A stretch of 64,000 nt of DNA from Zavarzinia sp. GTDB lineage: Bacteria; Pseudomonadota; Alphaproteobacteria; Zavarziniales; Zavarziniaceae. The position numbers were made by a program, and so were the translations under genes. The stretch is from NCBI GenBank assembly GCA_025869435.1, contig JAOZVS010000064.1:17779-81778 (forward strand), in the 5' to 3' direction. Under the pieces are notes generated by a model. The model saw only the letters and a list, made by a program, of their open reading frames with translations, was not told where the DNA came from and did no database searches. This document shows positions 44,473 to 49,069 of the stretch, in pieces (the first letter of the stretch is position 1; each line of letters starts with the position of its first letter).

Positions 44473-45582
44473 CTACTTTCGTGCCCGGAAGCGCTTGAGG
44501 AGGCGCCGTATCAGGCCTTTCATGCCCTTGCGCCTGCGTGGTGCGGCCGGCGCGGGTTCCGGCTCGGGCTTGCCCCGCGCCATGGCTTCGTGGCCTTCGC
44601 GGGCGATCAGGCGATCGAGTTCCTGCGATCGTCGAAACGCCTTGAGCAGCGCCGCATCGTTCAGCCTCGTCTCGCAAAAATAGCGCTCGAACAGACGCAT
44701 GTTGAAATTCAATACATGTCCATAGACATGCCGACGATCCGGACCCCACTGGTGACTGTAGAGATCGTTCACGACCTCGTAGCTGGGAAAGAGATACAGC
44801 CGCCCATCCCCTTGCGCGGTGGTTTGCATGAATTCCTCGACTGCCGAGCGCAGGATCGCCTTCGAGGCCCCATTGGCGACGATGCAGGCAAGATCGCGGA
44901 ACGTGGCATAGAGCGGGATCGGCGAAACCGTGAGGACGATGGCCGCCTCCGGGCGATGTTCGCGGATCAACTCGTGAATGCGCCTCAGGTTGGCCAGGTT
45001 CTCGCCATGGGTGGACAGCCGGAATTTGTGCCGCGACGGATCATGCTTCTCGATCGGGACCGCCCGCCAGAACACTTCCCCCGTTGGCTCGTCGTACCAG
45101 ATTTCCGAAAGCCCGAGTGTGATGATGAAGACTTCCGCCGCGTCGAACAGGGCCTTTGTTTCGATGCGCACCTGCTCGTCATAGCCGAACGAGCCGGCAT
45201 CGTAGCCATGCCACAGCGCGGCCTTGGGGGTCTTGTTTTCCCAGGCCCATTCGAACTGCTGACGGATGGCGAAGGTATTGACGATGCCGTCGCCCATCTT
45301 GGTGATATAGGCGGCATTGTCCTGCTTGGTCAGAATATTGAAGCCGAGTTTCAGGAAATGCTTCGAGATATTCTCGGCAAAGCAACTGCCGAAGGCGACA
45401 ATGGGGGTCTTCGCGGTGATGAAGCGGCGTCGGGGCATCCATCCCTTGGCGATATAGGTCGAAACGACATTGTCGGTTTCGAGGGACGAATCCCGCGGAT
45501 AATAGTTGGTATCGTCCCCGCGGAAGAAGGAACTGCTCGTCTTGAGCTTCTTCCCGTCCTGAACGATGTCGATCAACGGCAT
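44473..45582 (-). CDS. GSCFA domain protein (SGNH-like), copy 1
   Basis: TPIVAFGSCFAENISKHF; ITLGLSEIWYDEPTGEVFWRAVP; LTVSPIPLYATFRD. Confidence 0.92.
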   Translation of the reverse strand: MPLIDIVQDGKKLKTSSSFFRGDDTNYYPRDSSLETDNVVSTYIAKGWMPRRRFITAKTPIVAFGSCFAENISKHFLKLGFNILTKQDNAAYITKMGDGIVNTFAIRQQFEWAWENKTPKAALWHGYDAGSFGYDEQVRIETKALFDAAEVFIITLGLSEIWYDEPTGEVFWRAVPIEKHDPSRHKFRLSTHGENLANLRRIHELIREHRPEAAIVLTVSPIPLYATFRDLACIVANGASKAILRSAVEEFMQTTAQGDGRLYLFPSYEVVNDLYSHQWGPDRRHVYGHVLNFNMRLFERYFCETRLNDAALLKAFRRSQELDRLIAREGHEAMARGKPEPEPAPAAPRRRKGMKGLIRRLLKRFRARK

Positions 45583-45859
45583 GGCGCATCCCCCTGTGGC
45601 ATCGGATTTTCACCCTCCTTCCCCCGAGAGCACAAGGGGCGTGGCCGCACCGTCCGCAACGGGAATCGCGATTGAAGCGGCTGGACTTCCCGGACTATCC
45701 TGCCGCCGGTATCGGATCCGGGCCGGCTTGCGCCGGACACCCGGAACCTTGAAGGGAAACGGACGGCCATCGGCCTGTCCTGGCCGGGCGGGGCGCTGCC
45801 CATGGATCAGGACGGCGGAAGGATCTTTTTCCCCAGGCGTCAAACCGGCGAGGCCCCTC

Positions 45860-47077
45860 GTGAAGCATGATCAATCCGTCGTCCTCCTTGGTTTCTTCGC
45901 GCGCGGCAATGCGGGGGACGAGGCGTTCCTTCATGTCCAGTACGAACTGCTGAAGGACAAGTACAACATCATCGTGCCGATCGAGCACAAGAACGCCCAC
46001 CCCGATTTCCGGTCCTGGTATCCCTACACCGAATGCGAAGTCATCAATTATGACGACATTCCCCGCGTCTATGGCCAGGACGTGGTGGGCCTCCATATCG
46101 GCGGCGGCTCCCTGGCTTTCGGTTTCTCCGGCCAGTTCCTGATGACCGCGCTCGATGCCGGCAAGAAAACGCTGATCAGCGGCATCGACGCCTCGCTGAA
46201 GCCACGCCTGCCCCCCGACCATATCCGCTTCGACATCTATAACCGGCTGGACTTCCTGTCGGTGCGCACGATCAAGTCGCTGGACAATCTGCGCAAGAAC
46301 GAGGTCCCGGTGCATCATGGCGCCGACTGGGCGCTGGGCCTTGGCGTGATCGAGCCCCCGGCGCACAAGCGCGGCGGTGCCCTGGTGACCATCCGCGCCT
46401 TTGGCGAGCCGCCGGGCGACGAGCATCGCCGCGACATGCTGGCCCTGCACAAATATCTCGAGAGGCAGGGCCATCGCGTGCGCTACCTGCCCTTTGCCCC
46501 CGATGATCGCGATTTCCTCGACCACATGCCCCATGTGAAGCCGGACATGATCGAGAACGTGTGGTGGGATCCGCGTCAGGTGAAGGGCCTGATCAAGGCC
46601 GCCGATGTCGTCGTCAGCGTCGGCCGGCTGCACACACTGATTCTGTCCATGACCTGCCAGACCCCGACCTTCGCCATCGACCCCAAGATCATGTCGGGCG
46701 GCCGCCACATCCTGAACCGCAAGAATCTGAGCTTCGCCGATGAAGTGGGGCTGACCTTCTTCCATTCGGTCGACGAGATGTTCGAGGCCTACGGCGACGA
46801 TTTCAACACGAAGGTCGTCCCCCACGATTTCCGGCCGGATTATTACCAGCGGCTGGAATCACAGCAGGGCTTCATCCGCCAGATTCTGGAAGCCGAACGC
46901 GGCGCGATGCCCAAGCGGGGCGAGCCCGGCCACTGGTCCGGACCGACGCCGGGCGGCCGTCCGGTCGAGGACACGCTTCTGACCCTGAAGACGGAAGAAG
47001 AAGCCCGCGAGGAAAAGCGCCGACTGAAGCGCGAGGAAAAGCGCCGCGAGAAGCTGGAAGCGCGGGGCAAGGCCTGA
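45860..47077 (+). CDS. Polysaccharide pyruvyl transferase family protein (type B) with charged C-terminal tail
   Basis: GTG start: VKHDQSVVLLGFFARGNAGDEAFLHVQYELL...LHIGGGSLAFGFSG...WWDPRQVKGLIKAADVVVSVGRLH; tail EEEAREEKRRLKREEKRREKLEARGKA. Confidence 0.87.
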   Translation: MKHDQSVVLLGFFARGNAGDEAFLHVQYELLKDKYNIIVPIEHKNAHPDFRSWYPYTECEVINYDDIPRVYGQDVVGLHIGGGSLAFGFSGQFLMTALDAGKKTLISGIDASLKPRLPPDHIRFDIYNRLDFLSVRTIKSLDNLRKNEVPVHHGADWALGLGVIEPPAHKRGGALVTIRAFGEPPGDEHRRDMLALHKYLERQGHRVRYLPFAPDDRDFLDHMPHVKPDMIENVWWDPRQVKGLIKAADVVVSVGRLHTLILSMTCQTPTFAIDPKIMSGGRHILNRKNLSFADEVGLTFFHSVDEMFEAYGDDFNTKVVPHDFRPDYYQRLESQQGFIRQILEAERGAMPKRGEPGHWSGPTPGGRPVEDTLLTLKTEEEAREEKRRLKREEKRREKLEARGKA

Positions 47078-47090
47078 TCGGCCGTCCTCA

Positions 47091-47252
47091 GAGACCTTTT
47101 GGAAATCCGGCGGCTGAGAGCCGGCGAGAGATTTTCATGTCCCGCAAGGAGGGGATCGCAGCCGATATCGTGTGATATCGGCAAGATCGCCGACGACGCG
47201 GGGCGTGAAAAGATCCGCTGGATCGACCCGTCCGGGGTTTCCAAAAGGTCTC
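47091..47252. mobile_element. MITE-like near-palindromic element
   Basis: 15-bp perfect TIRs GAGACCTTTTGGAAA (47091-47105) / TTTCCAAAAGGTCTC (47238-47252), TCA duplicated at 47088-47090 and 47253-47255, central hairpin GCCGATATC-GTGT-GATATCGGC (47161-47182) exactly at the element midpoint. Confidence 0.8.
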
Positions 47253-47318
47253 TCAGGACCCGGCGGGAATGGCCACGCCAGGCCGTCCCGCCGCCCTCGC
47301 CCCCGGCGGTCAAGCAGG

Positions 47319-48938
47319 TCAGATCGAGTTTGCCGCCCGATAGCGGGCGATGATGTCCATCATGCCGGTGATCGAGCGCTCCAGCCGGCCCTGGGCCGCA
47401 GCCAGCTTCCGGCGGGACACCCCCTTTAGCGGACCTTCGGTCGCGGCCAGCAATTCGGGGACGGTGGCGAATTGGGCCAATCCCCAGTCGGCGCAGACCG
47501 CGTCGATCTTGGTGATCGATTTCCGCCCTGAAGGCAGGCGCAGTGGCGGCACCAGCGAGACCGTCGGCACGCCGAGGCTCGCCGCGAAGATCAGGGGATG
47601 CAGGCGCCCCACGCCGATGACCAGCCCGCTCGCGCTGATCAATTGCTTCACCCGCCGGGGGTTCCACCAGTGTTCGAACGTCGGCGCCAGTGAATCGAGG
47701 CCGAGTTCCGCCGTGTTGCGCGCGTCTTCCGGACAGAACGGCAGAAAGGCGGGGTGCCAGCCCTGCGCCTTCAGGCCTTCGACCAGGGCCTGGATTTCCA
47801 GCACATAGCTGTAGGGCACCAGGTGAAGCGGGAACTCGCGCAGGACAATCAGGGCCCGGCGGCTGGAATCCGCGACATCCTCCGCCTCGTCCTGGATCAG
47901 CCGGATCGCCCAGTCGGCGCCGTAATCGGCTTCGACTCCCAGTTGACGGCAAATGTCAAGGCCATGGCGGGTGCGCACCATCACCCGACTGAATCCCCCG
48001 AGATAGGCCTTCATCTGCGCGGCATCGATCACGCGGCGCCCGTGCACCACCTGGCGATCGGGCGGATCGCAGCCGGGCATGTCGAGACCGGGCAGGTCGA
48101 CGCCGAAAATGAAGGTCGGAATGCCGCGGGCCCGGGCCTCGAAGACCAGATTGGCGGCAAAGCCGACCGCAAGGCCGCCGCCGCCGATCATCATCGCCGC
48201 GATCGGCCGCCCCTCGTCGAACATGTCGAGATCGCATTGATGGCGGATTTCGCAGCGGTTGTAGGGATACCAGTGCTGAAACCCGTCGACCGCGCCGAAA
48301 CTGTCCACCGCGACGATGACGTCGAAATCCGGGGCGAAGGTCTCATAGATGGTCTGAAACAGCGCTTCGTCGCCGCAATTGCCCCGGCCGTAGAAGCCGG
48401 CGATGACGACGATCGGCCGGACGGACGGCAACGCGGGCGGCGCTTCGACGAGCACCGCGCGCGGGCTCTCGAGGCGGAGCAGAACGCCGCTGCTGCCGGC
48501 GCCGGCCCGGCCGGTGACGACGAGGCCAAGCGCGGCAGCGGTCGCCGCCAGCGTGCCTTCGCGGGATGCCGTGGTCCGGCAGATCAGGCGGGCTTCAAGG
48601 GCGGCCATCCGCTCCAACAGGGCTGGTCCGTTGGCGATCCGATGCCATGGCGTCAGTGTGACGATGTGATCAACCCGGCTGACGACCGCGGCCTGCAGCG
48701 CCTCAAGATCGACACGCACGAACGACCCCGCGGCCTCGAGAGCCAGCGGCAATTCCAGCACGGCGATGCCGGTTCCCTTCAGCGCCGAGAGAGCGGCATG
48801 ACTGCCGTCGCCAAGCTCGAGAACCACGTCGCCGGCACCGATCAGGGCCGAAAGCGCCGCCTGGGCCCCCTTGAAGACGATGGGCGTGCCCCCCGCGGAC
48901 GGCCCCCTGATGCGCAAACCCTTTTGAGACATATCCAT
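47319..48938 (-). CDS. Polysaccharide pyruvyl transferase family protein (type B) with degenerate methyltransferase-like N-terminus
   Basis: VIAGFYGRGNCGDEALFQTIYETFAPDFDVIVAVDSFGAVDGFQHWYPYNRCEI, closely parallel to the 36493..38238 product. Confidence 0.86.
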   Translation of the reverse strand: MDMSQKGLRIRGPSAGGTPIVFKGAQAALSALIGAGDVVLELGDGSHAALSALKGTGIAVLELPLALEAAGSFVRVDLEALQAAVVSRVDHIVTLTPWHRIANGPALLERMAALEARLICRTTASREGTLAATAAALGLVVTGRAGAGSSGVLLRLESPRAVLVEAPPALPSVRPIVVIAGFYGRGNCGDEALFQTIYETFAPDFDVIVAVDSFGAVDGFQHWYPYNRCEIRHQCDLDMFDEGRPIAAMMIGGGGLAVGFAANLVFEARARGIPTFIFGVDLPGLDMPGCDPPDRQVVHGRRVIDAAQMKAYLGGFSRVMVRTRHGLDICRQLGVEADYGADWAIRLIQDEAEDVADSSRRALIVLREFPLHLVPYSYVLEIQALVEGLKAQGWHPAFLPFCPEDARNTAELGLDSLAPTFEHWWNPRRVKQLISASGLVIGVGRLHPLIFAASLGVPTVSLVPPLRLPSGRKSITKIDAVCADWGLAQFATVPELLAATEGPLKGVSRRKLAAAQGRLERSITGMMDIIARYRAANSI

Positions 48939-49069
48939 CAAACAGAAAGATAAACCAGAAATGCCGAAGGACAATCGGAACGCGAATATCCGGAACCCCG
49001 GCGACGAAAAAGAGAATGGCACGCGCCAAAGGCGCGTGCCATCACGACATCAGGACTGCGGCGCCAGAC

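Follow-up and report, generated by a model that had tools for sequence, protein, structure and literature searches.

We found that a 162-bp palindromic element in a draft Zavarzinia genome is almost certainly a MITE that has spread through Zavarzinia genomes, and whose ends would be recognised in trans by an IS12528-like IS5 transposase. This reading is supported because the element is present in multiple copies, because relatives have empty sites and because there are autonomous IS with matching TIRs. A non-autonomous IS5-type MITE with a TNA target duplication had already been proposed from the sequence-only reading, and this proposal passed the sequence tests suggested with it.

Structure and setting of the element

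The element lies at positions 47091-47252 of the window (the whole 64,000-nucleotide stretch of DNA that was analysed). It was recognised from its sequence, from additional copies in this genome and in a congener, and from the fold. A TCA target duplication is found at 47088-47090 on the left and at 47253-47255 on the right. The left TIR, GAGACCTTTTGGAAA (47091-47105, plus strand), is identical to the IS12528 TIR at 14/15 positions, and the right TIR (47238-47252, minus strand) is its perfect complement, such that the two 15-bp ends match at 15/15. Further inside, the left arm TTTTCATGTCCCGC (47132-47145, plus strand) pairs with the right arm GCGGGGCGTGAAAA (47198-47211, plus strand) with two T-G wobbles, and a central dyad, GCCGATATC-GTGT-GATATCGGC (47161-47182), is centred on the element midpoint at 47171.5. 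All of these letters and coordinates had been given correctly in the sequence-only reading. The length of 162 bp also stood, though the range given with it (47088-47255, 168 bp) counts both TCAs.

When folded, the 162-bp strand formed one near-complete hairpin of -103.7 kcal/mol, against a mean of -57.9 for shuffled sequences (z = -11.5, 0/200). The foldback structure is therefore far beyond chance. Perfect 12-bp inverted repeats less than 400 bp apart with identical flanking TNA were found only once in the 64-kb window, at this element. Six-frame translations contained nothing transposase-like, and members of the family are 162, 54-55 or 40 bp in size. The absence of a transposase gene agrees with the earlier description of the element as non-autonomous.

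The element is situated between two convergent genes. The upstream gene (45566-47077, plus strand; stop codon TGA at 47075-47077) and the downstream gene (47319-49022, minus strand) both match PF04230 (E = 4e-15 and E = 3.5e-12, respectively). As both encode polysaccharide pyruvyl transferases, the convergent neighbours were fairly labelled capsule or polysaccharide genes. A search of genome contigs with peptide patterns gave no relative of the flanking protein. The window copy is not on a stop codon; its left TCA starts 13 bases past the start of the upstream stop.

Removal of the element together with one TCA does restore a GTCC-TCA-GGAC dyad, as had been noted. The further suggestion that the element inserted into a pre-existing terminator loop is unsupported, because a separate, stronger hairpin adjoins the element and because the candidate ancestral loop in Z. 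aquatilis is the stop of the neighbouring gene and not the insertion site. The adjoining hairpin (47261-47293), on the side facing the minus-strand gene, is G+C-rich and lacks a T-run. The two convergent genes of Z. aquatilis are separated by 21 bp, and the minus-strand stop codon there forms the centre of a hairpin, CCCGGCC-TCA-GGCCGGG. We considered this TCA loop as the ancestral target and rejected it, since alignment of the protein ends placed its TCA as the minus-strand stop, homologous to 47319-47321. A consensus scan found no terminator-like site in the element or at 47261-47293, and no T-run follows the element hairpin. In genome G005 the homologous convergent gap (L155:1303-1420, G005:C8) contains an unrelated palindromic repeat, GTGCGTCCTTCGAGAC...GTCTCGAAGGACGCAG; the same intergenic gap has thus been entered by two kinds of repeat.

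Copies, empty sites and the parent group

Three more full-length copies (C99, C133 and C161, 90-92% identity) and additional fragments were found in the same genome, the assembly of which is 75% complete. Two more full-length 162-bp copies were found in congener G002. The six full-length copies align without gaps over 162 columns with a mean column identity of 95%, and the TIRs of the copies outside the window contain 0-2 mismatches. Short copies of 54-55 bp were detected at five loci (L008, L014, L016, L018 and L019) in genomes G000, G002 and G004. G002 also has a perfect palindrome of 40 bp (L027). Both short forms keep the two TIRs and have lost most of the interior. The short copy of G004 is also present in the Z. 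aquatilis HR-AS record. Among 60 relatives searched, convincing matches were obtained in two congeners; a third, distant genome gave one 24-bp match only, which we take as chance. An exact core pattern was run against 84,980 species genomes and matched only Z. aquatilis, in a scan that may hide near relatives of the window.

Several related sequences were observed alongside these copies. G002 contains a tandem array in which the MITE interior is repeated about three times in degenerate form (L015, about 1240-1630; G002:C3:4496-4877). At L009:1501-1532 (G000:C157), a gene ends (...GIAADIM*) in a 32-bp stretch that resembles the MITE centre, and its stop codon lies at the hairpin. A DNA search of relatives with this dyad gave no match, and the stretch is either a relic of the MITE or the source of its core. 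A second MITE-like family with the TIR GAGACTGTTTYGAAA was seen at L103 (about 1501-1675) and L113 (about 1338-1515, G005:C11). It is flanked by TGA on both sides at L113 and on the left side only at L103, and its interior is another palindromic repeat, CGTCCTTCGACAGGCTCAGGATGAGG...

Wherever both flanks were available, intact copies carried an identical TNA on each side (TCA, TGA, TTA or TAA); in several short copies the duplication has decayed. To look for empty sites we joined the flanks minus one duplication and matched them against relatives. At several sites these queries ran straight through. At gspG/gspH three relatives lack the element and have exact junctions, AACTGG-TGA-GCGCGG in Z. 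aquatilis compared with AACTGG-TGA-[54 bp]-CGA-GCGCGG in the window genome. The site at the 3' end of a mutL-like gene is likewise empty in three relatives, and the element is missing from at least one relative at each of the L010, L013, L014, L016 and L018 sites. The checks proposed earlier for copies and for empty sites thus gave a positive outcome, with more copies both in this genome and in a congener, and with empty sites at orthologous positions in relatives. We did not find the pattern named as contrary to a MITE, i.e. a single copy with no related IS and with flanks conserved together with the element.

The earlier remark that the ends resemble the IS5 family (IS1031 group) was borne out by autonomous IS5 elements with matching TIRs and TNA duplications. 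The ends of intact IS were read off the sequence. IS12528 from Acetobacter, which we take to belong to the IS1031 group, has the ends TAA|GAGCCCTTTTGGAAA...TTTCCAAAAGGGCTC|TAA, the source of the 14/15 match to the window TIR. A Sphingobium IS5 element (TGA|GAGGCTGTTTGGAAA...|TGA) matches the MITE copy L019 at 15/15. The proteins of both match NF033580, IS5 family transposase. Within the genus, G005 retains the degraded beginning of a transposase (75% identity), located immediately inside TCA|GAGATTATTTGGAAA, and this remnant, used as a query, retrieved 341 plasmid records with IS5-family relatives. A search of six Zavarzinia genomes gave no intact transposase with matching TIRs, the decayed G005 remnant being the only trace. 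A local autonomous IS was sought with PF13340, PF01609 and tblastn. The IS5 genes of the genus obtained in this way had different TIRs wherever ends could be recognised, except for the G005 remnant, and were rejected. One IS5-family element in G005 (L065:930-1868, G005:C11) has TGAGAGCCTGACTCAAA.../TTGGGTCAGGCTCTCA as ends, and its transposase is divided between two frames. As no intact element with the MITE ends was found in the genus genomes searched, the mobiliser would be unassembled, lost or in other strains. Mobilisation in trans was probably carried out by transposases of a common family.

Stop codons, reading frames and covarying ends

In 10/17 copies the TNA beside the element doubles as a gene's stop codon, on one strand or the other, with one of the ten cases resting on a 46-codon reading frame. 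For comparison, 38/352 non-coding TNA triplets in the window are stops (p about 2e-6), with gene calls made by a simple ORF and composition rule and the background taken from the window only. At L008, L013, L016, L018 and L019 the stop position is the same in relatives without the element. These counts raise the possibility that transposition is actively directed to stop codons, over and above TNA recognition and selection, which would refine the MITE reading and not replace it. We consider such targeting improbable. When only TNA triplets within 60 bp downstream of stops were used as background, 38/90 were stops and the enrichment was no longer significant (p = 0.13). Moreover, the IS relatives at L117 and L122 sit at TNA not annotated as stops, and the 46-codon frame weakens one of the ten cases. 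A strong targeting claim, significant against all non-coding TNA only and not against TNA near gene ends, was therefore rejected. Read cautiously, insertions survive at gene 3' ends, where stops make up a large share of TNA, and the MITE would persist through low cost rather than through active targeting of stop codons.

Insertion exactly on a stop codon should do little harm. Element plus duplication amounts to 165 or 57 bp, each a multiple of three. The consequences can be followed at L008:1487-1620 (G000:C120, about 25,680), where a 54-bp copy is inserted at the gspG stop codon and neither gene is broken. In the three relatives the GspG stop TGA leads directly into conserved GspH sequence. 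In the window genome GspG still ends in ...DVGNW* owing to the duplicated TGA, and the overlapping GspH frame gains 19 codons from the in-frame 57 bp, reading MSATGESPFGPPGRVDPANVRTGSERGATLIEV where relatives have MSATGERGATLIEV. The extended reading frame would give GspH a predicted leader derived from the element. This copy provides a clean natural case of a stop-codon insertion in an overlapping gene pair with both frames intact.

It might be asked whether the family is a protein-coding palindromic element, similar to the Rickettsia RPEs, kept for supplying peptide segments. The insertion lengths, the in-frame extension of GspH and the finding that 4/5 of the 54-55-bp copies are free of stops in all six frames would fit this idea. 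We judge it very improbable, as the copies, with few exceptions, lie in intergenic DNA or on stop codons and not within genes, and as six open frames were also seen in 3.5% of simple shuffles, making the open frames only suggestive.

The two ends of the MITE change together. TIR positions 4-8 vary among copies (ACCTT, CCTGT, ACCAT, ACCGT, GCTGT), and the two ends of the same copy agree at 51/55 positions compared with 38 when ends were shuffled (p about 1e-4, a statistic weakened by shared ancestry among few copies). Among the six full-length copies, five base pairs are changed on both sides, compared with none or one when the partners were slid; 3/5 of these pairs fall in the TIR. The ends thus covary, although the interior hardly changes between copies. 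At TIR positions 4-8 the two ends of several autonomous IS do not match, so a match is probably not required by the transposase. The covariation would be accounted for by templated repair of one arm from the other, or by selection for pairing, and the coordinated change makes it a testable question how palindromic elements keep their symmetry.

The very stable fold, the five doubly changed pairs and the location of copies at gene 3' ends, often between convergent genes, could instead indicate an immobile structured RNA or transcription terminator kept for its function, a reading that is hardly tenable in view of the target duplications, the empty sites in relatives, the IS-matching ends and the varied sites, of the missing U-run after the hairpin and terminator-like site in the element, and of Rfam, where no family reached its gathering score and the sole sub-threshold match was a microRNA model (25 bits vs 70).

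For the MITE, we propose that the 15-bp ends would be recognised in trans by an IS12528-like (IS1031-type) transposase of the IS5 family, which would insert the element at a TNA triplet, in most cases with a C in front of it, and duplicate these three bases. The element would then have spread across Zavarzinia, with internal deletion giving rise to the 54-bp and 40-bp forms that retain both TIRs; its copies persist mainly at gene 3' ends. Insertion at a TNA that serves as a stop codon rebuilds this stop through the duplication, and 162+3 or 54+3 bp also keep the frame of an overlapping gene. It is conceivable, if unlikely, that the hairpin as a whole is suited to low-cost insertion: it would land on stops and regenerate them, its lengths would keep the frame, its ends would be held complementary by arm-to-arm repair or selection for pairing, and the family would drift to new symmetric ends.

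Comparison with known elements

The Zavarzinia elements are well supported as a new MITE family of a well-known kind. Bacterial MITEs such as Correia elements, RUP and TIMEs are about 30-300 bp long and multicopy, with IS-like TIRs, target duplication and strong foldback (PMC4133298, PMC10969869). The Zavarzinia family shares these properties and differs in being a new sequence family, a nearly full-length palindrome with a 3-bp TNA duplication, whose ends covary and which is restricted to the genus as far as searched. A literature search for Zavarzinia and 'insertion sequence' found no paper. For this little-studied genus, the family thus adds a MITE whose parent group can be traced and whose empty sites are clear.

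With IS12528/IS1031-type IS5 elements the MITE has in common the TIR GAGNCNNTTTGGAAA (14-15 of 15 positions identical) and the TNA duplication. These elements are about 905 bp long and carry an IS5 transposase gene, whereas the MITE has none. The IS5 DDE transposase is absent, as in any MITE, so the element is a derivative user of the family's ends and not an IS. On inspection the interior of the MITE has no obvious likeness to that of the IS, which gives no support to an origin by deletion from a known IS.

ISPsp10 (IS5 family, IS427 group) also makes use of a stop codon upon insertion at TAA (PMC4133298). In that case it is the transposase that obtains its stop from the target, whereas the MITE duplication preserves the stop of the host gene. 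Rickettsia RPEs are likewise palindromic, about 150 bp long and capable of in-frame insertion, but they are found in frame within genes (PMC10969869), whereas the MITE provides one such case and most of its copies lie at or after stop codons.
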